Shown here piece after piece: positions 5,396 to 24,536 of a stretch of DNA of 33,076 bases; position 1 is the stretch's first letter; each line of letters begins with the position of its first letter. The DNA is from Candidatus Thermoplasmatota archaeon. Its GTDB lineage: Archaea > Thermoplasmatota > E2 > UBA202 > DSCA01. Made by a program: the position numbers and the translations under genes. The notes beneath the pieces are model-generated. The model had not been told where the DNA came from. It did no database searches and was given only the letters and a program-made list of their open reading frames with translations. The stretch lies in the NCBI GenBank assembly GCA_034660695.1, contig JAYEJS010000079.1, forward strand, positions 1 through 33,076, given 5' to 3'.

Positions 5396-6171
5396 TGGAT
5401 AGCATAAAGCTAGGAATAATAGGCTGTGGGGCGGTAGGCAGTGATGTGGCGATGGCCGCGGACAACATGGAAGAGATATGCAAAATCTATCTTTACGACA
5501 TAAAAAAAGAAAAGGCGGAGAAACTGGGTAAAAAATTAAAAAAGGGAGTTGCCGAGGATTTTAATAATTTTTTGGGAAAGGTCGACATTGTTTTTGAGGC
5601 GGCATCCCAGGAAGCAATAAGGCAATATGCAGAAAAGGTTATCGATGCAGGAAAGGATTTGATAATAATGAGTATCGGCAGTCTTTTCGATGACACCCTG
5701 CGAAAAAGATTGGAAAGGAAAGCGAAAGAAAAAAAATGCAAGATTTACCTTCCGTCAGGGGCGGTATGCGGTATTGATGGGATAAAAGCGGCTAGGGCAG
5801 ATGACATAGACGAGGTCACACTTGTAACAACAAAGTCTCCTTCCTCTCTTGGCAGAGAACTGGAAAAGAGGACTATACTTTTTGATGGGAGTGCAAGGGA
5901 AGCGGTAAAGAAATTTCCGAGAAATATAAATGTTGCCGCGTGCCTGTCCATTGCCGGCATAGGATTTGACGAGACGAGGGTTAAAATTGTTGCAGATCCC
6001 GTGGTTAAGTGTAACAGCCATAAAATACTGGCCCATGGAAAATTTGGACGGCTTAGGGCGGAGGTAGAAAATCTGCCGAATCCAAACAATCCCGGTTCAA
6101 GTTACCTGGCATCCCTTTCAGCAATTGCAACCCTGAGACGGGCGATTAATCCAATTCAGATAGGTGCATGA
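5395..6171 (+). CDS. nadX: L-aspartate dehydrogenase
   Basis: This is a 258-residue NAD(P)-dependent aspartate dehydrogenase. It makes iminoaspartate, the substrate of quinolinate synthase, in place of aspartate oxidase NadB. The Rossmann motif is GCGAVG (10-15). Family blocks are EAASQEAIRQYA (68-79), LPSGAVCGIDGIKAA (119-133), KFPRNINVAA (173-182) and the nucleophile-side histidine His209 in CNSHKI. The C-terminal SSYLASLSAIATLRR is typical. Its promoter is shared with nadC. It is the first gene of a plus-strand run in which the next start overlaps its stop, so its co-transcription with redox membrane proteins is notable. Confidence 0.94.
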   Translation: MDSIKLGIIGCGAVGSDVAMAADNMEEICKIYLYDIKKEKAEKLGKKLKKGVAEDFNNFLGKVDIVFEAASQEAIRQYAEKVIDAGKDLIIMSIGSLFDDTLRKRLERKAKEKKCKIYLPSGAVCGIDGIKAARADDIDEVTLVTTKSPSSLGRELEKRTILFDGSAREAVKKFPRNINVAACLSIAGIGFDETRVKIVADPVVKCNSHKILAHGKFGRLRAEVENLPNPNNPGSSYLASLSAIATLRRAINPIQIGA

Positions 6172-6769
6172 AATGAGATTGGCACAGGTTATTGGCATAG
6201 CCATTGCACTTGTGCTTTTCACGGGCGGGGTGTATACTTCATACGAAAAGTCGAGAAATCTAAATGAAGCTACTTGTCTGGGTTGCCTTGCGCTTAACCC
6301 CATCGTAAAATCTTTTTCCGGGTTTTGGGTCGAGTATCCTGAAGGATATGATAAGGAAGGAAACAATGTGCCACATCCGTCGTGGGTCGTTGATGAACTG
6401 AGTAAAGGAAAGGTTGTGATGCTCTTTTTCTGGTATCATGGATGCGATCCATGCAGCAGACAGTGGAGTGACATGAAAAATGCAGGTATTGTTGAAGGAA
6501 GCGAAGAAAACGGGTGCATGGACGAAAGATACAAAAAAAACATCACACTTTTCACTGTAGATATCATCAATAGCGAGAGAAAAGATGTTATAAAAATTTA
6601 CACTCCAAAGGGAGATATTGGAGCACCAACAACGGTCATTCTCACTCTCAAAGATGGAAACGTTTTGTGGTATGCCTTCCAGGGGCCTGCAGGTGGGGAT
6701 GGTGGACAGCCTTCCCTCAAACAGTTAGAAGAAATATTGGCCCTTGCAGTCGAGAATATGGAGGTGTAG
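6164..6769 (+). CDS. Membrane-anchored thioredoxin-like protein
   Basis: The protein has 201 residues from the ATG at 6164, or 198 from the ATG at 6173. The second start lies just after the nadX stop, and which is used is unclear. An N-terminal hydrophobic anchor (about 7-24) precedes a CLGC pair (C38, C41). The thioredoxin-type motif WYHGCDPCSRQW follows (C94, C97) in a VVMLFFW context, then a beta-rich fold ending GAPTTVILTLKDGN. This indicates an extracytoplasmic thiol oxidoreductase (inference). The stop is TAG at 6767-6769, directly abutting the ATG of the NapH-like gene in the same frame. Co-expression with that polyferredoxin suggests electron transfer to exported disulfides. Confidence 0.75.
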   Translation: MHEMRLAQVIGIAIALVLFTGGVYTSYEKSRNLNEATCLGCLALNPIVKSFSGFWVEYPEGYDKEGNNVPHPSWVVDELSKGKVVMLFFWYHGCDPCSRQWSDMKNAGIVEGSEENGCMDERYKKNITLFTVDIINSERKDVIKIYTPKGDIGAPTTVILTLKDGNVLWYAFQGPAGGDGGQPSLKQLEEILALAVENMEV

Positions 6770-7651
6770 ATGCCCCTGTGCAACTTTAACTGTGCGTCGT
6801 GCCCATTTGCATATGTATGCGTGCCGATGGCAATCGGTACTGCAGTAGTATGGAAAAGATATGCATTTTCTCCGATGCAGAAAAAAAGGCTTGCTTCTCA
6901 GCTTGCATTCCTTTTTCTTTCAAATACTGCCTTTCTCGTCGGCAGCACGGGGCTGATATATACGTACTTTTACTGCTGGGAAGCACCCATGGCATCAATG
7001 GCCTGTCCAATCGGCATACTGGAACATGCAGCCATTGAACACAGTTTAACGTCGTTAATTTATCTCGCCGGCTCTATAACCCTTATTTCCATGGTATTCG
7101 GTAGGGCGGCATGCGGCTGGGCATGCCCCATTGGCTTTTTGCAGGATATTATAGGACATAAAAGAAAAATAAAGAGTGCGAATGGCAAAAAGGCTGATAA
7201 AAAATTACGTTATTTAAAATATGCAATTTTATTGTTGATAGCCCCTGCATGTTACATCACGGGGAAAATGGTTTATACAAACATCTGTCCCATCGGCGGT
7301 TTAACTGCCACAATACCTGCCCTAATTCTCCATCCACACGGCTATGCCCTTGGCACATATTTCATTCCAAAAATGCTTTTTCTTGGAGGCTTTTTTGCGC
7401 TCGTTGTTTTGCTGACACGTGGATGGTGCCGGCACCTCTGTCCCGTAGGGGCGATGATGGCTCCTTTCAACAAAATAAGTTTGCTTCAGCTGGAAGTGGA
7501 CATGAACAAATGCACTCACTGCGGGAGATGTAAAGCAGTCTGTCCTATGGACATTGAAATGCCCGAGGATAATAGAAGTTCGGAATGTATAAGGTGCGGA
7601 AGGTGCGTATCAGCCTGCCCCGTCAATGCGATAAAATTGGGTTTTACATGA
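6770..7651 (+). CDS. NapH-like membrane polyferredoxin
   Basis: This is a 293-residue integral membrane iron-sulfur protein of the NapH/CcoG-like group. Hydrophobic segments lie at about 43-68, 92-112, 150-168 and 198-216. CxxxCP-type motifs are at C115-C119 (CGWACPIGFLQD) and C220-C224 (CRHLCPVGA), with ACPIG (C79) and ICPIG (C173). Two C-terminal 4Fe-4S motifs are C248/251/254/258 and C273/276/279/283. An additional N-terminal cluster C4, C8, C11, C17 is unusual. Such proteins pass electrons across or along the membrane. The partner could be the thioredoxin-like protein just upstream (inference). The start codon directly follows the upstream TAG. Confidence 0.85.
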   Translation: MPLCNFNCASCPFAYVCVPMAIGTAVVWKRYAFSPMQKKRLASQLAFLFLSNTAFLVGSTGLIYTYFYCWEAPMASMACPIGILEHAAIEHSLTSLIYLAGSITLISMVFGRAACGWACPIGFLQDIIGHKRKIKSANGKKADKKLRYLKYAILLLIAPACYITGKMVYTNICPIGGLTATIPALILHPHGYALGTYFIPKMLFLGGFFALVVLLTRGWCRHLCPVGAMMAPFNKISLLQLEVDMNKCTHCGRCKAVCPMDIEMPEDNRSSECIRCGRCVSACPVNAIKLGFT

Positions 7652-8079
7652 TCATAAGGGAATTTGTATGTAATGATATACAGCAGGTTATAAAAATATC
7701 TTATAACTCTCTTAAAGAGTATTATTCTCCGGATTTTTTTATTAACGTATGGCAGGTCTCGCCCAACGGTTTTCTGGTTGCAGAGGAGGGTGGGAAGGTT
7801 ATCGGATTTGTATTGAGTGTTATGGCTGGGGCATCCACTCTTCGCATTTTGATGGTATGTGTCAGAAAAGGTTACAGGGGAAAGGGCATAGGCTCTACGC
7901 TCCTGAACCAGATAACAAGGAAATTTGAAAATCTAAAGAAAGTTTATCTGGAGGTGAAAGTAACAAACAAAAAAGCCATAAAGCTTTACAAGAAGCATGG
8001 CTTCGTAATAAAAGAAATCCTCCATGATTTTTATCCAGATGGGACAGATGGCTACCTCATGGAAAAATCGCTCTTATGA
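7648..8079 (+). CDS. GNAT-family N-acetyltransferase (RimI-like)
   Basis: The chosen start is the ATG at 7648, which overlaps the polyferredoxin stop as ATGA. A longer in-frame start at 7585 lies inside that gene. The 143-residue product has the GNAT fold: VIGFVLS, an acetyl-CoA loop RKGYRGKGIGS (73-83), and the C-terminal NKKAIKLYKKHGFVI motif typical of RimI-like protein N-terminal or alpha-amino acetyltransferases. The substrate is not predictable. It is the last gene of the nadX operon and overlaps the converging secreted-protein gene by six bases. Confidence 0.88.
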   Translation: MIIREFVCNDIQQVIKISYNSLKEYYSPDFFINVWQVSPNGFLVAEEGGKVIGFVLSVMAGASTLRILMVCVRKGYRGKGIGSTLLNQITRKFENLKKVYLEVKVTNKKAIKLYKKHGFVIKEILHDFYPDGTDGYLMEKSLL

Positions 8080-10119
8080 TCTTCTATACAAAATTAAGGA
8101 AAAGATGATTGCACATAGTAAGATAGCGAGAGTGAAGGATGGTGTTTCTTCTCCTATATGCCTGTCGGGCATTTTTCCTTCAGTAAATAAAGATACGGTA
8201 TAGCTACTATCAAGCTTTGTACCGTAAATATTTGTTGCATTCCGGTCAATTTCTATGGAATAGTGTTTCTCGTGTTCCAGAGGAGCGGAGGGTATTATGT
8301 ACAATATGTCCCCATTTTCGTTCCAGGATTTACTGAAATCGAAGGTTGCAGATATATTGCCACCCATGCTGCCTTTATCCATTTCCTCCGAGAAAACTAT
8401 TGAAATTTTTGTTGAAACCGGTACTTCCCTTTCTCCGTCATAAGGTAATGAGCAGAGCACTCTTAGCGGCATTACCTCAAAACCAATTGTAAATTTCTTG
8501 CCCATATGGTTGCCCGATTTGTCCATGGCATAAGTTGTTATCATTATTTTATACTCGCCCGGCGGAAGGAATCTCGGTATTATTTTTAAGGCAGTATCAT
8601 TATCTTCCCATTCTATGTGGTAAGAAAACCATGGATCGTTCCTTATGGCTTTTTCGAAAAATCTTATTTCCATTGGTTCTGAAAATTGTATTTTTATAAC
8701 ATCCCCGCTTTTTGCTGTGCCTCCATTGCCAGGATATGTTGAGATTATTTCAGGCGACTCTGTATCTGCAGAAGACGTTTCAAAAGATAACTCGTACGGC
8801 TTTCCCATTTCCTGCCCGCTGTCCCTTCTTATACTGCCGGACAGTGTTATTGTATATACGGTTTTGTACATCCAGTGGTTTTTCGGAGATATTACCAAAA
8901 CTTTGTCACTGTTCCATTTGATACTGTAGTCTATTGGCAGGTCAATTGAAATTGCATTTGAAACAGATGATTTGTCCATGTTGTAAGAAAAGGCTATGGT
9001 TACTGGAGAAAATATATCTTTATCCTTTGAGTTGTCTGCAGGGTCTGTTGATACAACTGTTGGAGGTGATGTGTCAACTGTGAATTGCCATGAAACGGTG
9101 CTTTCCTGTCCTCCATCGTCCTTAACTTTAACCATGAACGTATATTTCCCATCTGCTAAGCTTTCGTAATCTTTCTCTGTTTCCTGTCCCCATTCAGACC
9201 AGCGGCTATCGTACCCTATCAACATATAGGAATAAAGCAACTCGTCACTGGAAGTAAAATCGTCTTTTCCTTCCCAGCTAAACGTTGCGTTTCTGTAACC
9301 TGTAACTGAAGCGGGCTTTCCAATTAGCATGACTGAAGGTGGTGAATCCTCCGGCGGCGAGGCGGCTGCCGCGCTATCCACATAATGGGCAGTGAACCGG
9401 TGATTGTTTGAAGGTGGATCTGAATAGCCGGTATGCCCTTCGGCATCAAAAAGAGCAGCGATCACCATTATGTTGTCCCTGGTTATGTCTTCATATCCTG
9501 CACTGCTCCCGTTCCATACAGTTTCTTCCGTTATAACCCCCTCAATGCTCACATCTTTATCAAGTGCATAGTCAAGGAATCCGAAATGGTAGGGGTTGCC
9601 GGCAAGGTTGTTCCATCTTGATACAGGCTCGACAACATACGCCCTGAGATGTCCGTGGTACGTTCCTCCGTTATTTTCAATTTTTATTGATATGGAAATG
9701 CTGCTCTCCCCGAGCCAGCCGACATCAATGACTACGCCGACATTAGGGTATGCCCTGTTTCTGCACTCATTTATGGCACTCTTATATGGTGCAGTATCGC
9801 TTTTTCCTCCGAAAACTACAGAATACCCTCCATCAAAAAATGAAGTTGGATACCCGGCTATGTTATAATCCTCTATCCTGTCTGCCGCTTTTTCATTTTT
9901 ATCGGTGACCATGGCAACATAATAAAACGAACTATCAGAGCCGTATATTTTGTATAAAGCCTCTGCAGTATTCGGGCATCCTGTGCACCATGTTGCCGTT
10001 ATTTCCTCGCAGAAAACAACTTTGCTTTCAGTTGATGCCTCAGATTCAAAATTAAAGGACGGCAATGACGCCAAAGATAGAAGAATAATTATGGAAAGAA
10101 AGGGGACACTTGCCTTCAT
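8074..10119 (-). CDS. Secreted thioredoxin-fold protein with Ig-like repeats and C-terminal anchor
   Basis: This is a 681-residue exported protein. A signal peptide (about 1-25) is followed by a thioredoxin-like domain with TATWCTGCPN (C45, C48) and an N-I-A-G-Y-P-T-S-F-F-D-G block that matches the cis-Pro region of thioredoxins. A beta domain (about 125-250) contains GHLRAYVVEPVSRWN and GNPYHFGFLDYALD. This pair of domains is shared with the 603-residue protein at 20.9 kb. Three or more Ig-like domains follow, including bacterial Ig-type TVVSTDPADNSKDKD and EIISTYPGNGGTA starts. The end is PSFTLAILLCAIIF plus RRS, a membrane anchor resembling archaeal surface-sorting tails. It is the third gene of a secreted-protein operon. 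Role: surface thiol chemistry, inference. Confidence 0.85.
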   Translation of the reverse strand: MKASVPFLSIIILLSLASLPSFNFESEASTESKVVFCEEITATWCTGCPNTAEALYKIYGSDSSFYYVAMVTDKNEKAADRIEDYNIAGYPTSFFDGGYSVVFGGKSDTAPYKSAINECRNRAYPNVGVVIDVGWLGESSISISIKIENNGGTYHGHLRAYVVEPVSRWNNLAGNPYHFGFLDYALDKDVSIEGVITEETVWNGSSAGYEDITRDNIMVIAALFDAEGHTGYSDPPSNNHRFTAHYVDSAAAASPPEDSPPSVMLIGKPASVTGYRNATFSWEGKDDFTSSDELLYSYMLIGYDSRWSEWGQETEKDYESLADGKYTFMVKVKDDGGQESTVSWQFTVDTSPPTVVSTDPADNSKDKDIFSPVTIAFSYNMDKSSVSNAISIDLPIDYSIKWNSDKVLVISPKNHWMYKTVYTITLSGSIRRDSGQEMGKPYELSFETSSADTESPEIISTYPGNGGTAKSGDVIKIQFSEPMEIRFFEKAIRNDPWFSYHIEWEDNDTALKIIPRFLPPGEYKIMITTYAMDKSGNHMGKKFTIGFEVMPLRVLCSLPYDGEREVPVSTKISIVFSEEMDKGSMGGNISATFDFSKSWNENGDILYIIPSAPLEHEKHYSIEIDRNATNIYGTKLDSSYTVSLFTEGKMPDRHIGEETPSFTLAILLCAIIFSLILYRRS

Positions 10120-10153
10120 TATATTTCAGAGTTCAAAGGTTTTTCGTCGTATT

Positions 10154-10588
10154 TCAAACTTTCGTCCTTTTTCTGAGAAATACCGCTGTCATTGCTACGG
10201 AAATTGCTATGATGGATGCAATAGATGCAAAGCCTGGCGTACTATTTCTACCTGCCTTTTCTACTGCGAATGAGGTCGAGTTGTCCCACGTGCTAGTGTT
10301 ATCAGTATATTCCACGGTGAAATTGAGATGCACATCTGCCGTCTCGTTCACATAGAATGAATATACGTAATTTCCGTTGTCTTTTTCCATTTGCTCTGGC
10401 AGTCGGCATATGTCGCCAATGCATACCTGCAGAATTACCTTGGAAACATTTTCATCTGCTTTTAGATACACTGTTATTTTGTCCCCTGGCTCAGGGTGTT
10501 CGGGTGTCCATGTCACGTTTAGGGCATTTGCCTGAGTTATGGCAAGAGACGCAAAAATCAGTAAGACAAATATTGGGAGTATTTTCAT
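10154..10588 (-). CDS. Secreted protein with PGF-CTERM-like sorting signal, 144 aa
   Basis: It has an N-terminal signal peptide (about 1-22, ending near ANA), a beta-sandwich-like ectodomain with N-glycosylation sequons (NVT, NVS, NET, NTS, NST), and two cysteines (C56, C61). The C-terminal tail S-T-P-G-F (PGF at 118-120) is followed by a hydrophobic span and FLRKRTKV. Such a tail is the pattern of PGF-CTERM proteins processed by archaeosortase A. The ectodomain fold and role are unknown. It sits between the PKD-like gene (8-base gap) and the large thioredoxin/Ig gene (34-base gap), so the three are probably one transcript. Confidence 0.8.
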   Translation of the reverse strand: MKILPIFVLLIFASLAITQANALNVTWTPEHPEPGDKITVYLKADENVSKVILQVCIGDICRLPEQMEKDNGNYVYSFYVNETADVHLNFTVEYTDNTSTWDNSTSFAVEKAGRNSTPGFASIASIIAISVAMTAVFLRKRTKV

Positions 10589-10596
10589 TGCATCAC

Positions 10597-11313
10597 CTAT
10601 AATTTTATCAGCTTGATGTCATCCATTGCTTCGTTCCACTCGCTATCATACGCCCTAACAGTAAGAGGAACATTTCCTTCGTCTATCAATTCATTGTCAT
10701 CGTAATCCTGGTTCCATTCCCAGGTATATAGGGGAGAGGTATCAACATGTACCACTTCCCGTCCGCAGAAGCAGCTCATCTGGAGTAAAAATTCAACCCT
10801 CTGCACGTCGTCGGATGCTTTCACTTCCACGGTTATATCTCCTATAACAATCTGTCCCAGGATTGGCAGTATTTTTATCCCGTACAGATAAATCCCATTG
10901 TGCGGCTTTACTATTTTAATGGAAGGGCCGTTTGAATAACTCAGCGGCATACTTACTTTCAATGTAGCGGGCTCGCTCTCGGCACGATTCTCATCCATTG
11001 CCTTCACCGTTATTGTATAATCACCCTTCTCGTCCCACGTATGTGATGCTGAAGCCTGCTGACCGGAATCGTGCAAAAGGGTGCAGAACTCATCACCATC
11101 GCCCCAGTCGAAGCAGTAAAACACTTTGTCACCGTCAGGGTCTGTTGTCACGGCAGTGTATGTATACCACTTTCCTACCTCACCTGATGACGGCCCGGTT
11201 ATTGTCGGCTTTTCCGGGGGGTTGTTGGGCATCATGCCCGTAGTAGCATTTATCGCCATGACCGACGGAATTACAAGAGCTGCCAATACAAATATCGCTA
11301 TTGCTTTTTTCAT
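10597..11313 (-). CDS. Secreted PKD-domain protein, 238 aa
   Basis: A signal peptide (about 1-20) is followed by a PKD-like domain (about 35-122) with FDWGDGD and SHTWDEKGDYTITVKAMDE. The second Ig-like module (130-238) opens IKIVKPHNGIYLYGIKILP and ends VPLTVRAYDSEWNEAMDDI. This second module has the same opening as the small secreted protein at 12.4 kb. There is no membrane anchor, so it is probably secreted or held by partners. The stop is TAG at 10597-10599, with a TGA three codons later in frame. It is the first gene of the three-gene operon. A 14-base palindrome lies 37 bases upstream of its start. Confidence 0.82.
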   Translation of the reverse strand: MKKAIAIFVLAALVIPSVMAINATTGMMPNNPPEKPTITGPSSGEVGKWYTYTAVTTDPDGDKVFYCFDWGDGDEFCTLLHDSGQQASASHTWDEKGDYTITVKAMDENRAESEPATLKVSMPLSYSNGPSIKIVKPHNGIYLYGIKILPILGQIVIGDITVEVKASDDVQRVEFLLQMSCFCGREVVHVDTSPLYTWEWNQDYDDNELIDEGNVPLTVRAYDSEWNEAMDDIKLIKL

Positions 11314-11349: not shown

Positions 11350-11363
11350 TTAACTATCGTTAA
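11350..11363. promoter_or_regulatory. Palindrome TTAACGATAGTTAA upstream of the secreted operon (copy 1)
   Basis: The minus strand reads TTAACGATAGTTAA (TTAAC and GTTAA around GATA), 37 bases before the start at 11313 and just upstream of A/T-rich TATA-like sequence (11335-11348). An identical 14-mer lies upstream of the homologous secreted protein at 20862. Candidate operator of a shared regulator. Confidence 0.45.
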
Positions 11364-17650: not shown

Positions 17651-18568
17651 TCAGCCAAGCATTCCTTTGATGATCGTATCTATCGCTTTTTCTTCTTCCA
17701 ATCCTCTAGCCATAAGAGTTTCAAGTTGTTTTTTATCCACGCTACCTATCGCTGCTTCATGAGTAACCTTCGCTTTTTCATTGCTTACGTTCACGATCGG
17801 TATCGCCTTTGCAATAGCATTATCTTGAACAATTTCAGTGCAGTCAACATGTCCTCTAGCATAAGGAGCATTTCCTTCACTAATGTTAGTAACCTCGGAT
17901 GAGGCGTTATCTTTTACGGCGATCCTCGATTTTATTACGCTTCTTGCGTACTCGCCGTTCAGAACAATACCTTCCTTGACCTTTATTTCATCGTTTCCCT
18001 TTCCATAAACTTTTGTTATCATCTCGCTAATACTTTCCCTTTTTGCATCTATTGAATAATCGATATCAAGCTTTCCCACTCTTCCAATGAGCAGTGAAAA
18101 TGTGGTGTTGATTTCTCCATAGTTTATTATTCTTGCTCTAGGTATTACGGTAGCACCACCATAATTCCCATGCCAATGTATCTCTTCATATCGTAAGGAT
18201 GCTCCTTCTTCGATCATAAATCTTGCATCCATCAAGTGCTTTACTTTCACTGCATTAGGAAATACGCAATGGGCTAGGAGACATGCTTTCGAATTCTTTT
18301 CTGCTATTATCTCTGTATTAATCCGCTGAATTCCTTCTTTTGGTATAACGCCAAAACACAAATGGATTGGTTTCCCTATCTTGCATCCTTCCTTTATTCG
18401 TAATTTAACGTCTACACCTTCCTTTATGCTCTCTTTTTCTAGGACCATACCTTCTACAGCATTGGCACTCAATATTTTATTTTCACTTACAAACAAATAT
18501 GCCACATCTTTTGCTTTTGTAATGGATGGGTTTCCTCCCATGAATTTATATGCTTCTAGGAGACCCAT
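17651..18568 (-). CDS. sufB: Short SufB/SufD-family Fe-S scaffold protein
   Basis: This 305-residue protein has the SufBD beta-helix core: an EEGASLRYEEIHWHG stretch, GEINTTFSLLIGRVGKLDIDY, SRIAVKDNASSEV, ARGHVDCTEIVQDN and the C-terminal VTHEAAIGSVDKKQLETLMARGLEEEKA. It is shorter than bacterial SufB (about 480). This matches the minimal SufCB-type (SMS-like) systems of many archaea, where SufBC alone assembles clusters. Cys within H-V-D-C and the Glu-His pair in T-H-E-A are likely cluster-site residues. The start has GAGGTG upstream and overlaps the sufC end by 23 bases. It is last in the six-gene sulfur operon. Confidence 0.9.
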   Translation of the reverse strand: MGLLEAYKFMGGNPSITKAKDVAYLFVSENKILSANAVEGMVLEKESIKEGVDVKLRIKEGCKIGKPIHLCFGVIPKEGIQRINTEIIAEKNSKACLLAHCVFPNAVKVKHLMDARFMIEEGASLRYEEIHWHGNYGGATVIPRARIINYGEINTTFSLLIGRVGKLDIDYSIDAKRESISEMITKVYGKGNDEIKVKEGIVLNGEYARSVIKSRIAVKDNASSEVTNISEGNAPYARGHVDCTEIVQDNAIAKAIPIVNVSNEKAKVTHEAAIGSVDKKQLETLMARGLEEEKAIDTIIKGMLG

Positions 18569-19289
18569 TCTTTTTCACCTCTAAATATTTGCCAGAAGGA
18601 CATTTCCCACACATTTTCCTGAAAAATTTAGTCACTTCCCAAGTACTACCATTTTTCACTAAATAGCCATCGCAGATCAAGCTCGCCTCGTCTGCTACCC
18701 TCGCTACTTCTTCTCTATGAGTAATTAGTAAGACCGTGATACCTTCTTTTTTAAGACTAACGATTACGTTGAGAAGGTCGTCTAATGAAACGAAATCTAT
18801 TCCAGAGTCTGGTTCATCTAGAATAGCTAGTTTTGGCGTCATCATTATTATTGATGCTAGCTCTATTCTCTTTCTTTCGCCACCGCTCAATGAATCATCG
18901 ATTGCTCTATTCAAACACCGTCTTGGATCTAGATTTACCATCTTCAAAGCTCTTTCTATATTGTTGCCACCTATGGAAAGATAATCCCTGACCAGCAGCC
19001 CCTCAAACCTAGCTGGTTCTTGCCACGCTAATGTTATACCCATTTTTGCTCTCTCATGTATTAAATGACTCGTGATGTCCTTTCCTTCAAAGAAAATTTT
19101 ACCGGTAGAGGGCTTATAAATCCCCATGATTGTATATGCTAGGGTGCTCTTCCCAGAACCGTTCGGACCGATGACAGCATGAATCTTTCCCCTGTTAACT
19201 GATAAGGAAAGCCCTTTTATTATTGTCTTCCCGTTTCTTTCTACTTTTATTGAATCTATTCCAAGTATTTTATTGTCATTCTTTTCCAT
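18546..19289 (-). CDS. sufC: SufC Fe-S assembly ATPase
   Basis: This is a 247-residue ABC ATPase. The start chosen is the ATG at 19287-19289, sharing one base with the MoaD-like stop (TAATG) and preceded by the strong Shine-Dalgarno GGAGGGGGT. An upstream in-frame ATG at 19313 lies within the MoaD gene. Walker A is GPNGSGKS (41-48), the signature is LSGGERKRIELASI, and Walker B is LAILDEPDSGID, all typical of SufC. It works with the adjacent SufB/D to assemble and transfer Fe-S clusters. The C-terminus has CGKC, giving one extra cysteine pair. Confidence 0.94.
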   Translation of the reverse strand: MEKNDNKILGIDSIKVERNGKTIIKGLSLSVNRGKIHAVIGPNGSGKSTLAYTIMGIYKPSTGKIFFEGKDITSHLIHERAKMGITLAWQEPARFEGLLVRDYLSIGGNNIERALKMVNLDPRRCLNRAIDDSLSGGERKRIELASIIMMTPKLAILDEPDSGIDFVSLDDLLNVIVSLKKEGITVLLITHREEVARVADEASLICDGYLVKNGSTWEVTKFFRKMCGKCPSGKYLEVKKNGSPRSI

Positions 19290-19534
19290 TAACCCCCTCC
19301 TACGGGTGGACATAGCGCTACCTCGTCGCCATCTTTTAGCAACTCTGTTCCATTTGCACGGTTATGATTTAATGATAATATAGTTGAATCCATTAATTTC
19401 CTTAATTTGGGGTAGTCGTTCATCAGCATTTTCAACATTTCATTAACGCCTGTCTTTTCCTTTAACTCAATTTCGATTTCCTTCTTACCAACAACTTCTC
19501 TGTGAGCAGAAAAGAATTTCACCTTAATCTTCAT
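19289..19534 (-). CDS. MoaD-like ubiquitin-fold sulfur carrier
   Basis: This 81-residue beta-grasp protein ends in GGG, with the classic DEVALCPPVGGG tail of MoaD-type proteins and KVKFFSAHREVVGKKEIEIEL at the start. The terminal glycine would be adenylated by the E1-like enzyme encoded upstream and then carry sulfur as a thiocarboxylate. It overlaps the E1-like gene by 11 bases. Its own coding tail supplies the sufC Shine-Dalgarno. No other molybdopterin genes are in view, so a molybdenum cofactor role is not supported by context. Sulfur delivery to Fe-S assembly or tRNA thiolation is an alternative. Confidence 0.88.
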   Translation of the reverse strand: MKIKVKFFSAHREVVGKKEIEIELKEKTGVNEMLKMLMNDYPKLRKLMDSTILSLNHNRANGTELLKDGDEVALCPPVGGG

Positions 19535-20264
19535 TTAATCCTCCACAACTCGGACATTTCGGGTCACGCTCTATTTTGATTAGATCATACGTCAGAAATT
19601 GAGCGTCATATACCAATAATTTATTCGTCAACAATGGTTCCATGCCTACAAAAAACTTGACGACCTCTGTTGCTTGAATAGTCCCAATTGTTCCCGTTAC
19701 CGCTCCTAAAATAGGAAACTTTTTGTGAGAAGGAAAACGAGGATAAATACATTTCAGACAAGGAGTTTTCCTTGGTATTATGGTGGTTGCTCTTCCCTCC
19801 AATCCTTCGCAAGCCCCATGGAAGAGAGGAATACCTAATTTTAAGGAGGCATCATTGAGCAAGTATCTACTGGGGAAATTATCCATGCAATCAACTATGG
19901 CGTCAACATACTTTAACAAATCAGTCACGTTTCCTCTTCCTATTTTTTCTTTTATACCAATAATCTTAATATCTGAGTTCATTTTCATGATTTTTTCCAC
20001 AGCGGATTCCACCTTGTTTTTACCTACATCTTCATCCCAGTACAATATCTGACGATTCAAATTTGAAACTTTTATTTTATCATTGTCTATGATTAATATG
20101 CGACCAATCCCAGCAACAGCCAAATATATCCCGACAGCTGAGCCGAGGCCACCCACTCCAGCAACTGCCACACTCACTCCTTTCAATTTTTCTTGTCCTT
20201 CCCTGCCAAAATTTGGTATCACGATTTGCCTATCATATCTTTCTAAATCTCTTTTTGTCAGCAT
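19524..20264 (-). CDS. E1-like adenylating enzyme (MoeB/ThiF/HesA family)
   Basis: This 246-residue enzyme activates the C-terminal glycine of ubiquitin-like sulfur carriers. The N-terminus is LERYDRQIVIPNFGREGQEKL. The nucleotide motif is GVGGLG (36-41). DNDKIKVSNLNRQILY and the adenylation Asp in VDAIVDCMDNFPSRYLLND follow. Zinc cysteines are C169/C172 and C237/C240. The loop that usually carries the conserved Cys of MoeB/ThiF is shortened to YPRFPSHKKFPILGAVTG and has no Cys. It probably adenylates only. It lies between the two carrier genes, two bases from the ThiS-like gene. Confidence 0.92.
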   Translation of the reverse strand: MLTKRDLERYDRQIVIPNFGREGQEKLKGVSVAVAGVGGLGSAVGIYLAVAGIGRILIIDNDKIKVSNLNRQILYWDEDVGKNKVESAVEKIMKMNSDIKIIGIKEKIGRGNVTDLLKYVDAIVDCMDNFPSRYLLNDASLKLGIPLFHGACEGLEGRATTIIPRKTPCLKCIYPRFPSHKKFPILGAVTGTIGTIQATEVVKFFVGMEPLLTNKLLVYDAQFLTYDLIKIERDPKCPSCGGLNED

Positions 20265-20266
20265 CT

Positions 20267-20470
20267 TTAGCCTCCAGAGGATACTCGAATTATTTTTATC
20301 TTATCTCCATCTAATATCTCTTCATCTATAGGTATTGGTATATTATTCCTGACAATTATCACGTTATCTGGAGTTTGACCAATTTTTTTGATCAATTCGT
20401 ATCCATTCAAACTATCAGAAAATTCCATTTCTCTTTCTTTTCCATCATAAAAAATTATTGCCTTTTTCAT
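20267..20470 (-). CDS. ThiS-like ubiquitin-fold sulfur carrier
   Basis: This 67-residue beta-grasp protein ends in RVSSGG, with VIIVRNNIPIPIDEEILDGD typical of ThiS and related carriers. It is a second carrier for the same E1-like enzyme. Its start overlaps the regulator gene's stop as ATGA. Thiamine genes are absent from the window, so a thiamine role is not supported by context. Two distinct carriers in one operon suggest two acceptors or a relay (inference). Confidence 0.87.
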   Translation of the reverse strand: MKKAIIFYDGKEREMEFSDSLNGYELIKKIGQTPDNVIIVRNNIPIPIDEEILDGDKIKIIRVSSGG

Positions 20471-20787
20471 CTATCAACCTCCATGCTCTCTATTCCCTTG
20501 GATCTCAACATTTCGCAAATCCTGCAAATTTCTTTTATTACATCATTTCCATTTATTATGCGTTTTGCAGATTTTTTTATTTGATTTAATATCTGCTCGT
20601 TAATTATTCCCATTTTGCCTTTCCCTCTTTTATCAGATAGATATTGAGATATTGCAGCAGAACTTAGCCCCAATTTTTCTGCTACTTCCTTTTGGCTTAA
20701 ACCATAATCTTCCATCATACATTTGGTTAGTTCTCTTCTGATAAATGGTAGGATGTACCACGTTGCGGTCTCGCAAGGTACTTTCAT
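20467..20787 (-). CDS. XRE/COG2522-type transcriptional regulator with four cysteines
   Basis: This 106-residue protein opens with MKVPCETATWYILPFIRREL and has a helix-turn-helix LSQKEVAEKLGLSSAAISQYLSDKRGKG (about 30-57). The family is the archaeal predicted-regulator group COG2522. Cysteines are C5, C23, C88 and C91, the last two in E-I-C-R-I-C-E. Four cysteines in a regulator heading a sulfur-carrier/Suf operon suggest Fe-S or redox sensing, much like IscR or SufR in bacteria (inference). A CTATATAC element 18 bases upstream is its probable TATA box and half of an inverted repeat, so autoregulation is plausible. Confidence 0.85.
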   Translation of the reverse strand: MKVPCETATWYILPFIRRELTKCMMEDYGLSQKEVAEKLGLSSAAISQYLSDKRGKGKMGIINEQILNQIKKSAKRIINGNDVIKEICRICEMLRSKGIESMEVDR

Positions 20788-20804
20788 TCAGTTCACCAAA
20801 AATC

Positions 20805-20827
20805 CTATATACCGATTTTGTATATAG
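20805..20827. promoter_or_regulatory. Divergent promoter inverted repeat CTATATAC-N7-GTATATAG
   Basis: Perfect 8-bp arms (20805-20812 and 20820-20827) flank seven bases. The left arm lies 18-25 bases before the regulator ATG (minus strand). The right arm lies 35-42 bases before the ATG of the secreted protein (plus strand). Each arm fits a TATA box for its own side, so one site could control both transcripts. Confidence 0.55.
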
Positions 20828-20829
20828 AT

Positions 20830-20843
20830 TTAACGATAGTTAA
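20830..20843. promoter_or_regulatory. Palindrome TTAACGATAGTTAA upstream of the secreted thioredoxin-rhodanese gene (copy 2)
   Basis: This is identical to the 14-mer at 11350-11363. It lies between the right-hand TATA element and the predicted transcript start, a typical repressor position, and 18 bases before the ATG at 20862. Confidence 0.5.
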
Positions 20844-20861
20844 TTAAAAAGGGATGGTAAA

Positions 20862-22673
20862 ATGAATGGAAAAAAATTTGTTGCAATGATATTGATAATA
20901 TTGGTAATGTCACCGCTGGTGAGCACGATAAGTAGCAAAAAAAGCTATACGAACGTTGCCATCATGCCATATAGGGCTGACATAAGTATTACGGGAGTAG
21001 GTGTTGAGATAATGGAACCTGAAGATGGTACTGTTTTCCACCGTAGGAATGTTTCGCTTCGTTGTATGGCACATGCATGTTGTGGAGACAAACTTACTTA
21101 CTGGGAATGGAAATGGATATGGGATAATGGAAGCTATAGTGACTCCAGTACAATCAACTATAAAACGGAATTTGAATTCTGGATAAACATATCCCTCTAT
21201 CCAGGGTGGAATAAAATTGATGTTACTGTAAAGGTCGCTTCAGGCACTGAAGGTCATGATAATGTAACATTATACTATGACGGTCCTGTTGCAAACACGA
21301 ATGGACCTTATGATGGAAGAGTGGGGAAGGAAATAAATTTCTATGGATCTGCGGATGGGGGATATAAGCCATATAAATGGCGCTGGGATTTTGGAGACGG
21401 AAACGAAAGCAACGAGCAGAATTCATCTCATACTTACACAAATACGGGGGTGTACAAGGTAATTTTAACTGTAACTGATAGCATGGAGTACAACGATACA
21501 AGCTATACAGTTGCCGTGATAGATAAGAGAGAGGATAATTTCACTCACACGGTTCTTGCGGAATATGGGACTCTCAGTACCTGCCCTCATTGTCCTCCCG
21601 CGTCAAGCCAGTTATATGACATTTATACTTCTGGAGACTACAATTTTTACTATGTTTCTTTAGTTTACGATAAGAATCATAGAGCAGGTAAGAGGTTGCA
21701 AGAATTAAATATAAGCGGTGTACCAGATGTATATTTTGATGGAAAATATACGCATGTTTTAGGGAAGCAATCTGATAATCAACCCTATAGAAATGCCATT
21801 GCAACTTGTGGCACACGAAATGTAACAGATATAGATTTAGATGTTAATGTTGAATGGAAGGGCAATGCTGCCTTGAGGATAAATATTACTGTCAAAAATA
21901 ATGGTCCTGAGGGATACAAAGGGCATTTACGGGCATATATTGTGGAGCCTGTATCCCGATGGAACGACCAGCAAGGGAATCCATACCATTTTGGGTTTTT
22001 AGGTTTTGCATTTGATAGAAGTCTTTCTTTGGCTAAGAATGGGGTTAAGTCCCTCGGTGGTGATACATATGAGTTCACTACAACCTGGCGTGGTTCCCTA
22101 CATGGATTCAGCGATATATCGGAAGATAACATAATGGTGATTACAGCAGTTTTTAACAAGGAGACAGGCTATGTTAATCAAATTGCTGCGGCAGCGCCAG
22201 CACAAAATGAAAATGATAAACAAGCAGTCGTTACGAGCGTCGGTGGTGGAGACGGCTATACAAACATAACCGTGGAAGAGGCATGGGAACTGTTGCACTG
22301 TCCCTGCAACGGGATACAGATTCCTATAGACGTCAGGACAATAAAAGAATTTGTAGATGAACGAATAAACGTTCCATCTGAAAGGGAAAAACCACGGTGG
22401 TTTCCGGTGCAATTGATGCAGCGTGAGGGATTATTGCTGAACCTCTTCATGTCTTTGTATAAGGGTCAGGAAATCATCCTCTACTGCAGGACCGGTCATC
22501 GGAGTTACAACGCAGTTCAAATTCTCATTGACAACAGCTTTGACGGAAAGATTTACAATATGGTCGGAGGTATAACAGCATGGAAAGAAGCAGGACTTCC
22601 AACTGTTAAAGGATTTATGGGACTGCTAACTTGGGATTTCCAAGATAAAGTGGTCGTTGGGATAAAAGGGTGA
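20862..22673 (+). CDS. Secreted PKD-thioredoxin-rhodanese fusion protein, 603 aa
   Basis: A signal peptide (about 1-25) is followed by an Ig-like region (about 45-140) and a PKD domain (about 145-220, WDFGDG and SHTYTNTGVYKVILTVTDS). Next is a thioredoxin-like domain with STCPHCPPASS (C241, C244) and I-S-G-V-P-D-V-Y-F-D-G. The beta domain has GHLRAYIVEPVSRWN and GNPYHFGFLGFAFD (about 325-440). The C-terminal rhodanese domain (about 465-583) has DVRTIKEFVDE and the active-site loop CRTGHRS (C542). The thioredoxin and beta domains are shared with the 681-residue protein at 8.1-10.1 kb. Joining a dithiol domain to a persulfide-forming rhodanese outside the membrane suggests sulfane-sulfur handling (inference). 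No C-terminal anchor is seen. Confidence 0.88.
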   Translation: MNGKKFVAMILIILVMSPLVSTISSKKSYTNVAIMPYRADISITGVGVEIMEPEDGTVFHRRNVSLRCMAHACCGDKLTYWEWKWIWDNGSYSDSSTINYKTEFEFWINISLYPGWNKIDVTVKVASGTEGHDNVTLYYDGPVANTNGPYDGRVGKEINFYGSADGGYKPYKWRWDFGDGNESNEQNSSHTYTNTGVYKVILTVTDSMEYNDTSYTVAVIDKREDNFTHTVLAEYGTLSTCPHCPPASSQLYDIYTSGDYNFYYVSLVYDKNHRAGKRLQELNISGVPDVYFDGKYTHVLGKQSDNQPYRNAIATCGTRNVTDIDLDVNVEWKGNAALRINITVKNNGPEGYKGHLRAYIVEPVSRWNDQQGNPYHFGFLGFAFDRSLSLAKNGVKSLGGDTYEFTTTWRGSLHGFSDISEDNIMVITAVFNKETGYVNQIAAAAPAQNENDKQAVVTSVGGGDGYTNITVEEAWELLHCPCNGIQIPIDVRTIKEFVDERINVPSEREKPRWFPVQLMQREGLLLNLFMSLYKGQEIILYCRTGHRSYNAVQILIDNSFDGKIYNMVGGITAWKEAGLPTVKGFMGLLTWDFQDKVVVGIKG

Positions 22674-22677
22674 TAAT

Positions 22678-22899
22678 GTGCCAGAAGGAAAAATAACGAA
22701 GGACACCACTATCACTGAAGCTTTAAAATTCCCTCATGCAGAGGAAGTGTTGTATAAATATGGAATTGGATGCATGGGATGCCCGATGATGGTGCTTGAA
22801 AAAATAGGAGATATAGCTATAATGCATAGAATAGATCTAGATAAGCTATTGGAGGAATTAAATGGGGCTATTTCGGAAGGAAAAGGGAGACTGGTATAG
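22678..22899 (+). CDS. DUF1858 protein with CxxC, 73 aa
   Basis: The start is GTG at 22678, four bases after the upstream stop, with AAGGGTG as a weak Shine-Dalgarno. The only nearby ATG (22676) is out of frame and soon stops. The product has KDTTITEALKFPHAEEVLYKYGIGCMGCP (C32, C35) and the helical IDLDKLLEELN end typical of DUF1858/ScdA-N-like proteins. Members are often found with hybrid-cluster, sulfur or nitrosative-stress genes. The protein has no signal peptide, so it is probably cytosolic, and may relay sulfur or electrons between the exported and cytosolic parts (inference). The stop is TAG. Confidence 0.85.
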   Translation: MPEGKITKDTTITEALKFPHAEEVLYKYGIGCMGCPMMVLEKIGDIAIMHRIDLDKLLEELNGAISEGKGRLV

Positions 22900-22951
22900 C
22901 GAGCGGTCTGTCCAGGAGAAACGCGTATATGCCCATAAATATTTCTGCGCT

Positions 22952-23362
22952 ATGAAAAGATTGCTGATTTTTGCCTTCATTATGATTTCGTTCATTTTAT
23001 CAGGCTGTATCTTATATTCGCATACCTCCTCGACAAAGATTGTATCAATCACGCCCGATAAAACAGTGTATCACTCAGGTGACCGCATGACACTTTATAT
23101 CACACTTAAATCATCTGACATAATAAAGAATGTAACTGTCAATGCCACCGGATTAGAAAATAGAATTGGGCAGATACTACTACATGAATCTAAGGTTACC
23201 AACCTCGTGAAAGGAATTAACAATGTAACATTTGAGTATACCTTACCCTCCTGTTCGCCATGCAATAAGTTAGACCCCGGTACATACCCCATCGATGTTA
23301 CGATATCGTATGACGGAAAAATCATAGCACAAAGTACAGAGAATATACAGCTTGAACGATAA
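22952..23362 (+). CDS. Secreted lipoprotein, 136 aa
   Basis: The start chosen is the ATG at 22952 because it begins a lipoprotein signal peptide, MKRLLIFAFIMISFILSGC (lipobox Cys19). An upstream frame to 22862 overlaps the DUF1858 gene and would bury the signal. The ectodomain is a beta-sandwich-like region (VYHSGDRMTLYITLKSSD, FEYTLPSCSPCNKLDPGTYPI). It has a CSPC pair and several N-glycosylation sequons. No known family is recognised, and it resembles CARDB/Ig-like surface modules. The CSPC pair and its place beside the thioredoxin-CcdA gene point to a redox partner (inference). Confidence 0.72.
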   Translation: MKRLLIFAFIMISFILSGCILYSHTSSTKIVSITPDKTVYHSGDRMTLYITLKSSDIIKNVTVNATGLENRIGQILLHESKVTNLVKGINNVTFEYTLPSCSPCNKLDPGTYPIDVTISYDGKIIAQSTENIQLER

Positions 23363-23405
23363 ATTTACCTTTGGTAAAATATGTAAAAACGAAATGAGAG
23401 GAAAG

Positions 23406-24536
23406 ATGAAGAGATTTGTATTTGTTTCATTGCTTGCATTTCTTATTATTGAAACAGCATCTATTATAACGCCTATATCATGTGCAAAAGAGAGCGAAGT
23501 GTGCATCGTATTTTTTTACAGCCCAACATGCCATGAATGCATGGAAGCAAAAGATAAACTGGATAATTTAAAAGCAATATATAATCTCAATATAAAGAAG
23601 TATAATGAAATCCTTGATGAAGATTTGTTGTTAGGATATTATAAGGCATTTGATGTACCCATAAAAGAAAGGGGTGCTTTTGCAGTATTTATGGGGAACA
23701 AGCATTACTGCAAGCTGTCCCAGTTTGATGGTATTGAGGAAGAAATAAAAAAGCATGTTGACACCGGGTTAAAATGCCCGGAGCCGTCTGAGGATGGAAA
23801 TGCCGAGGAGACCGTGAAGGGATTTACCATACTGACAGTCATGGCAGGAGGGGTGATGGACGGAATAAATCCATGCGCTTTTGCTACACTCATCTTTTTC
23901 ATTGCATATATGGAAAAAGTGAAATATGGAAGGAAAACTCTCTTGTCAGTAGGGATATCATTTTCACTGGCCGTATTTACGGGCTACTTACTTATAGGGC
24001 TTGGAATACTGGAATTTTATTATAGGATAGAAGAAGTTGGAATAATTTCAAAGTACATATACCTATTTGCGGGGTTATTCGCATTGATACTTGCCGCTTT
24101 TAACGTGTGGGATTATTTCAAGATAAGCAATGAAGAAAAGCCTGTACTTCAACTGCCAAAATTTTTAAAAAGAAGGAGAGGGAGAATAATAAAAGTTTTA
24201 ACACAGAAGAGGGAAATATTGATTCTATCCTTGCTTGCTTTTGCCACAGGACTTGGCATTTCTCTGCTGGAATTTGTATGTACGGGACAAATACTTTTGC
24301 CCGTAATGGCGGTAATAAAAAGTGCGTCTTCTTTAAGGATGATTGCATTTGCATACCTTCTGCTATACAACACCATGTTTATTGTGCCTCTGCTTATTGT
24401 AATGGCTCTATTCTATGAGGGATATAGCTCTGAGAAATTGGGCGAGATGCAGAAAAAAAGACAAGGGACAGTAAAACTTCTCACAGCTTTGGTACTTGGT
24501 GTCATCGGAATATACATGCTTTACATTTTGACATAA
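23406..24536 (+). CDS. Thioredoxin-CcdA/DsbD-like transmembrane thiol transporter
   Basis: From the ATG at 23406 (GAGAGG four bases upstream; another in-frame ATG lies at 23394) the product is 376 residues. A signal or anchor is followed by a thioredoxin-like domain with FFYSPTCHECMEAK (C42, C45). Then comes a membrane domain with DGINPCAFATLIFF (C157) and LLEFVCTGQILLPV (C292). These two Cys-Pro/Cys-Thr helices are the redox pair of CcdA/DsbD proteins, which carry reducing power from cytosol to outside. It probably supplies electrons to the exported thioredoxin-rhodanese protein. A 6-bp inverted repeat TTTACC-TTT-GGTAAA (23364-23378) lies in the gap before it. Confidence 0.88.
   Translation: MKRFVFVSLLAFLIIETASIITPISCAKESEVCIVFFYSPTCHECMEAKDKLDNLKAIYNLNIKKYNEILDEDLLLGYYKAFDVPIKERGAFAVFMGNKHYCKLSQFDGIEEEIKKHVDTGLKCPEPSEDGNAEETVKGFTILTVMAGGVMDGINPCAFATLIFFIAYMEKVKYGRKTLLSVGISFSLAVFTGYLLIGLGILEFYYRIEEVGIISKYIYLFAGLFALILAAFNVWDYFKISNEEKPVLQLPKFLKRRRGRIIKVLTQKREILILSLLAFATGLGISLLEFVCTGQILLPVMAVIKSASSLRMIAFAYLLLYNTMFIVPLLIVMALFYEGYSSEKLGEMQKKRQGTVKLLTALVLGVIGIYMLYILT

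Follow-up and report, generated by a model that had tools for sequence, protein, structure and literature searches.

We have analyzed a divergent cluster of sulfur- and redox-related genes in a Candidatus Thermoplasmatota archaeon (assembly GCA_034660695.1). The window, i.e., the whole stretch of DNA analyzed, comprises the 33,076 nucleotides of contig JAYEJS010000079.1 (C79), and the genome that holds it (G000) is archaeal, 1.63 Mb in size and 99.6% complete. Ten open reading frames (ORFs) lie between positions 17651 and 24536. All are present at the positions given in an initial annotation made from the sequence, which had described the gene content and divergent order correctly; the main domains it named are confirmed, and most of the domain calls are backed by family profile matches. 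In what follows G numbers denote related genomes, f numbers families in the same class and L numbers individual loci.

The left arm is read on the minus strand. Beginning at the shared promoter, it encodes an XRE-type helix-turn-helix (HTH) regulator with an N-terminal cysteine and a C-terminal CxxC motif (20467-20787; PF01381), a ThiS/SAMP2-like ubiquitin-like protein (Ubl; 20267-20470; PF02597, PF21965), the ThiF-type adenylyltransferase E1 (19524-20264; PF00899, E = 2e-70), a MoaD-like Ubl whose gene adjoins that of E1 in relatives (19289-19534; PF02597, TIGR01687), the ABC ATPase SufC (18546-19313, with a likelier start at ~19289) and the 305-amino acid SufB (17651-18568; PF01458). The right arm, on the plus strand, encodes an exported protein with PKD, thioredoxin-like (Omp28/HBP35-type) and rhodanese domains (20862-22673), a DUF1858 protein with a CxxC motif (22678-22899; PF08984, TIGR03980), an exported lipoprotein with the lipobox LSGC and a CSPC motif (22862-23362, likelier start ~22952), and a 394-amino acid protein in which an exported thioredoxin (Trx) domain precedes a CcdA-like membrane domain (23352-24536, likelier start ~23406). 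Gene overlaps had been reported for both arms. Those on the left are real but short, while those on the right mostly become small gaps when the likelier starts are used.

The ubiquitin-like carriers, E1 and the SmsCB scaffold

Both Ubls are beta-grasp proteins of the ThiS/MoaD family that end in GG. Four Ubl genes score above the cut-off in the genome, and the window E1 is its sole strong E1 match (one match at E ≤ 1e-30). The ThiF-type nucleotide motif and the zinc cysteine pairs are present in this E1. Its sequence has no cysteine in the region of ThiF C184, where PSHKKFPILG lies opposite ThiF ERNCRTAGVVG; MoeB works without this cysteine, and its absence is therefore not treated as family-defining. 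The initial annotation had allowed that dedicated genes elsewhere, for a cysteine desulfurase and for molybdenum cofactor synthesis, might account for the carriers. IscS is indeed encoded elsewhere in the genome, adjoining IscU. A search of the genome for MoaE gave no match (11 of 14 controls were positive), and molybdenum cofactor synthesis is accordingly rejected as the reason for the Ubls. The genome also contains an NcsA-type tRNA thiolase gene. tRNA thiolation in T. kodakarensis is served by Ubls, for which S0 can substitute (PMC11323500). The tandem of a MoaD-like Ubl with E1, the second, ThiS/SAMP2-like Ubl and the single genomic E1 resemble the UblA/UblB-TK2117 and SAMP-UbaA systems (PMC11323500); unlike these, the window genome lacks MoaE, and its genes are tied to those of exported thioredoxin and CcdA-like proteins. 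A second MoaD-like Ubl of the same genome, 74% identical to that of the window, is encoded beside a hydrogenase-maturation-protease-like gene (contig C126, L018, 17701-18661), and in G003 the genes for E1, MoaD and a protease lie in a row.

The best solved match of SufB is M. jannaschii SmsB (MJ0034; E = 6.7e-71, full length over residues 2-305), and that of SufC is SmsC of the same organism (MJ0035; E = 1.6e-77). The cluster ligands C218, C239 and C242 of the M. jannaschii SmsC (PMC12192291) align with the window SufC in the motifs SLIC and CGKC, the latter being identical. SufC and SufB are adjacent with no SufD beside them, and each of the genome's two SUFBD_core matches adjoins its own SufC. 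From these alignments we take the window SufCB to be an SMS-type scaffold, of the SmsC2B2 kind. It has in common with SMS (MJ0034/MJ0035 and T. kodakarensis SmsBC; PMC12192291, PMC12442378) the pairing of SufC with SufB and no adjoining SufD, the C-terminal CGKC motif of SmsC with an upstream cysteine, and the full-length match to SmsB. It differs from them in that the pair is part of an operon that also encodes Ubls and E1 and is served by a shared HTH promoter, and in that the genome has in addition IscS and IscU and a second SufCB, near genes of iron-uptake type. The window SufB is not filed under the NCBIfam family NF052511 (SmsB), scoring 90.9 bits against a curated cut-off of 650 with a model of 445 positions. 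The initial annotation had regarded the missing cysteine desulfurase as a clue to the function of the locus. This is not borne out, because the M. jannaschii SMS operates without one and is able to use sulfide, as it does in vivo (PMC12192291).

In the SmsB tree the window protein groups with those of G026 and G106, away from its own family (support 94/95). G026, a member of another family, has the order HTH-SmsC-SmsB with DUF1858 beyond one divergent gene; its SmsC is 72% and its SmsB 63-65% identical to the window proteins. In this SmsB (L203, C151, 7965-8870) a glycine replaces a conserved cysteine (GHVDG). In G106, SmsB adjoins an exported Trx protein and homologues of the window genes 6770-7651 (50%) and 6164-6769 (36%); the region 6164-7651 of the window comprises a TlpA-like exported gene and a NapH-like polyferredoxin gene. 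In G029 (L240, C19, 2677-8532), SmsCB ends an oxygen-defence cluster with Fur-like, flavodiiron, rubrerythrin and desulfoferrodoxin genes. No operon uniting SmsCB with E1 was seen outside the window, and SmsCB is linked elsewhere only to HTH and DUF1858.

The exported redox arm and the shared promoter

The exported dithiol domain of the protein at 20862-22673 has no Pfam match, and a fold search with its AlphaFold model (pLDDT 90.8) found the thioredoxin-family proteins HBP35 and Omp28. The rhodanese domain of the same protein is recognized by PF00581 (40 bits against a cut-off of 22.2) and has the catalytic loop CRTGHR. The window encodes a further exported thioredoxin-like protein (8074-10119), which shares 49% identity with the first one's Trx domain, in a probable operon on the minus strand (8074-11313) with a PKD protein and a small exported protein. 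The lipoprotein gave no family profile match.

In the 394-amino acid membrane protein C60, C63, C175 and C310 are invariant among 34 aligned homologues. They are placed as a CxxC in the exported Trx domain, an NPC in the membrane part and a single cysteine in a later helix; the model is helical from 151 to 393 and of moderate quality (pLDDT 78). No CcdA or DsbD family model matched above its cut-off, and a fold search with the model (pTM 0.60) gave meaningful matches to the Trx domain only. The attempt to name the membrane part by family model or solved fold therefore failed, and for this reason we call the protein CcdA-like. The thiol conduit of the initial annotation is thus retained as a putative assignment, based on the four invariant cysteines and the helical membrane model. 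ResA/CcdA and SoxV/SoxW are thiol conduits of the CcdA/DsbD type with exported thioredoxins, and known proteins of this kind carry electrons outward rather than sulfur inward. The window protein shares with them two conserved cysteines in a membrane protein and an exported thioredoxin partner; unlike them, it has diverged beyond the family models and is linked to Ubl activation rather than to cytochrome c or Sox genes. The Tso selenoprotein operon (TsoB, TsoC; PMC13188914) likewise combines a rhodanese with DsbD-like domains, and there are weak matches to TsoB and TsoC. It differs from the window locus, in which no selenoproteins were seen and Ubl and E1 are present.

The HTH regulator has three cysteines that are invariant in 23 aligned homologues. 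It presumably belongs to the family COG2522 (arCOG01863), under which identifiers we found no relevant literature. An inverted repeat had been noted in the promoter shared by the arms. The repeat CTATATAC-N7-GTATATAG (20805-20827) is exact, but arms of this length arise in 4% of composition-matched shuffles, making it a weak choice as main operator; it may instead represent two divergent TATA boxes. The adjacent sequence TTAACGATAGTTAA (20830-20843) is the better-supported candidate operator. It occurs twice in the window, against an expectation of 0.10 at one mismatch, the second copy being exact and read on the minus strand (11350-11363), 37 nucleotides before the gene 10597-11313 with which the exported-thioredoxin operon begins.

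The operator takes the form of a 14-nucleotide palindrome, TTAACN4GTTAA. In a search set chosen around these genes, TTAACN3-4GTTAA lies upstream of 13 of 46 HTH genes and 14 of 1146 other ORFs (Fisher 1e-12), and several of these 14 are divergent partners of HTH genes. Since the motif was spotted by eye before counting, the counts are descriptive and do not constitute an independent test. Four of the seven "TlpA" entries are copies of the window gene, and four distinct cases were counted. In G004, G015, G017 and G019 the palindrome precedes orthologues of the 10597 gene, and in G044, G045 and G057 it precedes operons of the order Trx-E1-Ubl-CcdA. G070 has it ahead of a second, divergent Trx gene, and in G023 and G024 it sits between HTH and DUF1858. 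On these occurrences it marks a candidate regulon. Near-matches are also found 3-19 nucleotides before the start codons of DUF1858 genes in f6 (L154, L156, L165, L166). The same family has an HTH paralogue beside a longer, UbaA-type E1 (L208-L214), in several cases with a CTTACCAATTGGTAAG-like palindrome, which is a different candidate operator.

Association of the two arms in related genomes

Are the two arms neighbors in other genomes? In G023 the genes HTH-E1-MoaD are divergent from DUF1858 and a Trx-CcdA gene; in G024 the same three are divergent from DUF1858, and in G079 E1 is followed by DUF1858. No ThiS-like gene was seen between HTH and E1 in G023 or G024. A search of the class found this type of E1 together with DUF1858 only in these three genomes and that of the window, and in all four the two genes lie within 2.5 kb of each other; the product of the chance values is 3e-10, uncorrected for the fact that G023 and G024 share a genus.

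Of the 20 f6 genomes in which the E1 is short, 17 have genes for E1, Ubl and CcdA in a row and in the same direction, and in most of these an exported Trx comes first; in the other three the genes are on separate contigs. Several of the Trx proteins of these operons are 52-63% identical to the window Trx domain. The tree rejects the f6 E1 as an orthologue of the window E1, placing it in a clade separate from that of the window and f4, and the CcdA proteins are ~20% identical. The link is therefore not one inherited block, and by these comparisons two or more gene lineages have acquired or retained the association. Taken across genomes, gene order and the shared palindrome support the view that the carrier/E1 arm and the exported redox arm belong together. 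Among bacterial relatives of the E1 (45-49% identity), a neighborhood of Ubl, CcdA or DUF1858 was not seen in the ten loci read. At three loci (L279, L280, L284) the Trx-E1-Ubl-CcdA operon lies beside genes for hydrogenase subunits and a maturation protease.

A possible thiol and sulfur redox regulon

The reading that we favor, with a probability of roughly 0.4, is that a thiol/sulfur-redox regulon occurs repeatedly in this class of archaea and that the present locus is its most complete example so far. In such a regulon the CcdA-like protein would export electrons while E1, the Ubls and SMS would use the reduced sulfur that results. The HTH protein would sense thiol or sulfur state through its three invariant cysteines and repress at the palindrome. 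Through the CcdA-like protein, reducing power from the cytosol would reach the exported thioredoxin and rhodanese; these would in turn reduce extracellular disulfides and sulfane sulfur, and the resulting sulfide could enter as H2S. E1 would adenylate the C-termini of the Ubls, which would accept sulfide or persulfide to form a thiocarboxylate that serves tRNA thiolation among other purposes; the SMS scaffold would draw on the same sulfide for iron-sulfur clusters, and DUF1858 may be a cytosolic dithiol partner. The membership of the module and the candidate operator are supported by the gene orders and motif occurrences, while we infer the flow of sulfur, the cysteine sensing, the export of electrons, thiocarboxylate formation and the use of sulfide by this SMS. 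The reading draws on the f6 operon, the layouts of G023 and G024, the constant proximity of E1 and DUF1858 and the HTH-SmsCB order of G026, together with the enrichment of the palindrome at HTH genes, the use of sulfide by SMS (PMC12192291), the role of Ubls in tRNA thiolation (PMC11323500) and the presence of the NcsA-type gene.

Several observations weigh against this interpretation. G001-G003, which belong to the family of the window genome, carry E1, SmsCB and CcdA on different contigs, so that the proximity of the arms expected by the initial annotation holds for G023 and f6 but not for the closest relatives. The strict palindrome precedes just 4 of the 15 f6 Trx genes examined, and none was found directly upstream of SufC or SufB genes. 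IscS could feed the carriers, and SmsCB of the sister clade is found beside genes for rubrerythrin, desulfoferrodoxin, a flavodiiron protein, peroxiredoxin and flavoredoxin. This last association favors an alternative that we regard as nearly as likely, namely a regulon for thiol or oxidative stress. The exported Trx, rhodanese and CcdA would then reduce disulfides or persulfides outside the cell, SMS would repair or replace damaged iron-sulfur clusters, and E1 and Ubl would safeguard tRNA thiolation or, like Urm1, act in protein modification. The invariant cysteines of the regulator would suit a thiol switch, and an association with peroxiredoxin genes is known for some Ubl genes of the ThiS family in archaea (PMC2948915). 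Yet neither the ten-gene locus nor the f6 operons that were read showed any of the oxygen-defence genes listed for the sister clade, and the exported rhodanese and the neighboring f6 hydrogenase genes point to sulfur.

That the genes are chance neighbors engaged in mostly independent housekeeping (tRNA thiolation by E1 and Ubl, cluster assembly by SMS, and folding outside the cell by exported Trx and CcdA) would fit with the genome's single E1 and its NcsA-type gene, and with the scattering of the parts in the closest relatives, but it is improbable given the f6 operon, the repeated DUF1858 neighborhood and the shared palindrome. More improbable still is the chain first proposed, in which sulfur from outside passes through CcdA, DUF1858 and the Ubls to SufBC. 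All its parts are side by side in the window, and two of their adjacencies are found again in other genomes. Against it, CcdA-type proteins are known for the transfer of electrons, not of sulfur, and passage of sulfur through CcdA and DUF1858 into SufBC is not supported; G026 has HTH-SmsCB and DUF1858 yet no E1 match, and SMS can take free sulfide without a carrier (PMC12192291).

Returning to the sulfur-redox regulon, it is a more doubtful proposition that it amounts to a new archaeal pathway coupling Ubl/E1 chemistry to the cell exterior. Sulfur or thiol would then be handled jointly by a relay of Trx and CcdA and by the thiocarboxylate of a Ubl, with a single cysteine-sensing regulator governing both these and the iron-sulfur scaffold. 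The individual parts are of known kinds. The initial annotation knew of no described system with this set of genes, and in the literature searched, coverage of which is incomplete, we likewise found no description of the E1-Ubl-Trx-CcdA combination or of a link between Ubl and CcdA. The association bears on the source of sulfur for SMS scaffolds and Ubl carriers in archaea, and on the function of most archaeal Ubls. The conserved set of E1, Ubl, exported thioredoxin and putative membrane thiol conduit offers a testable route, with one regulator, one 14-nucleotide site and four core genes. DUF1858, a domain without known function for which the literature searched held nothing relevant, gains a recurrent partner.

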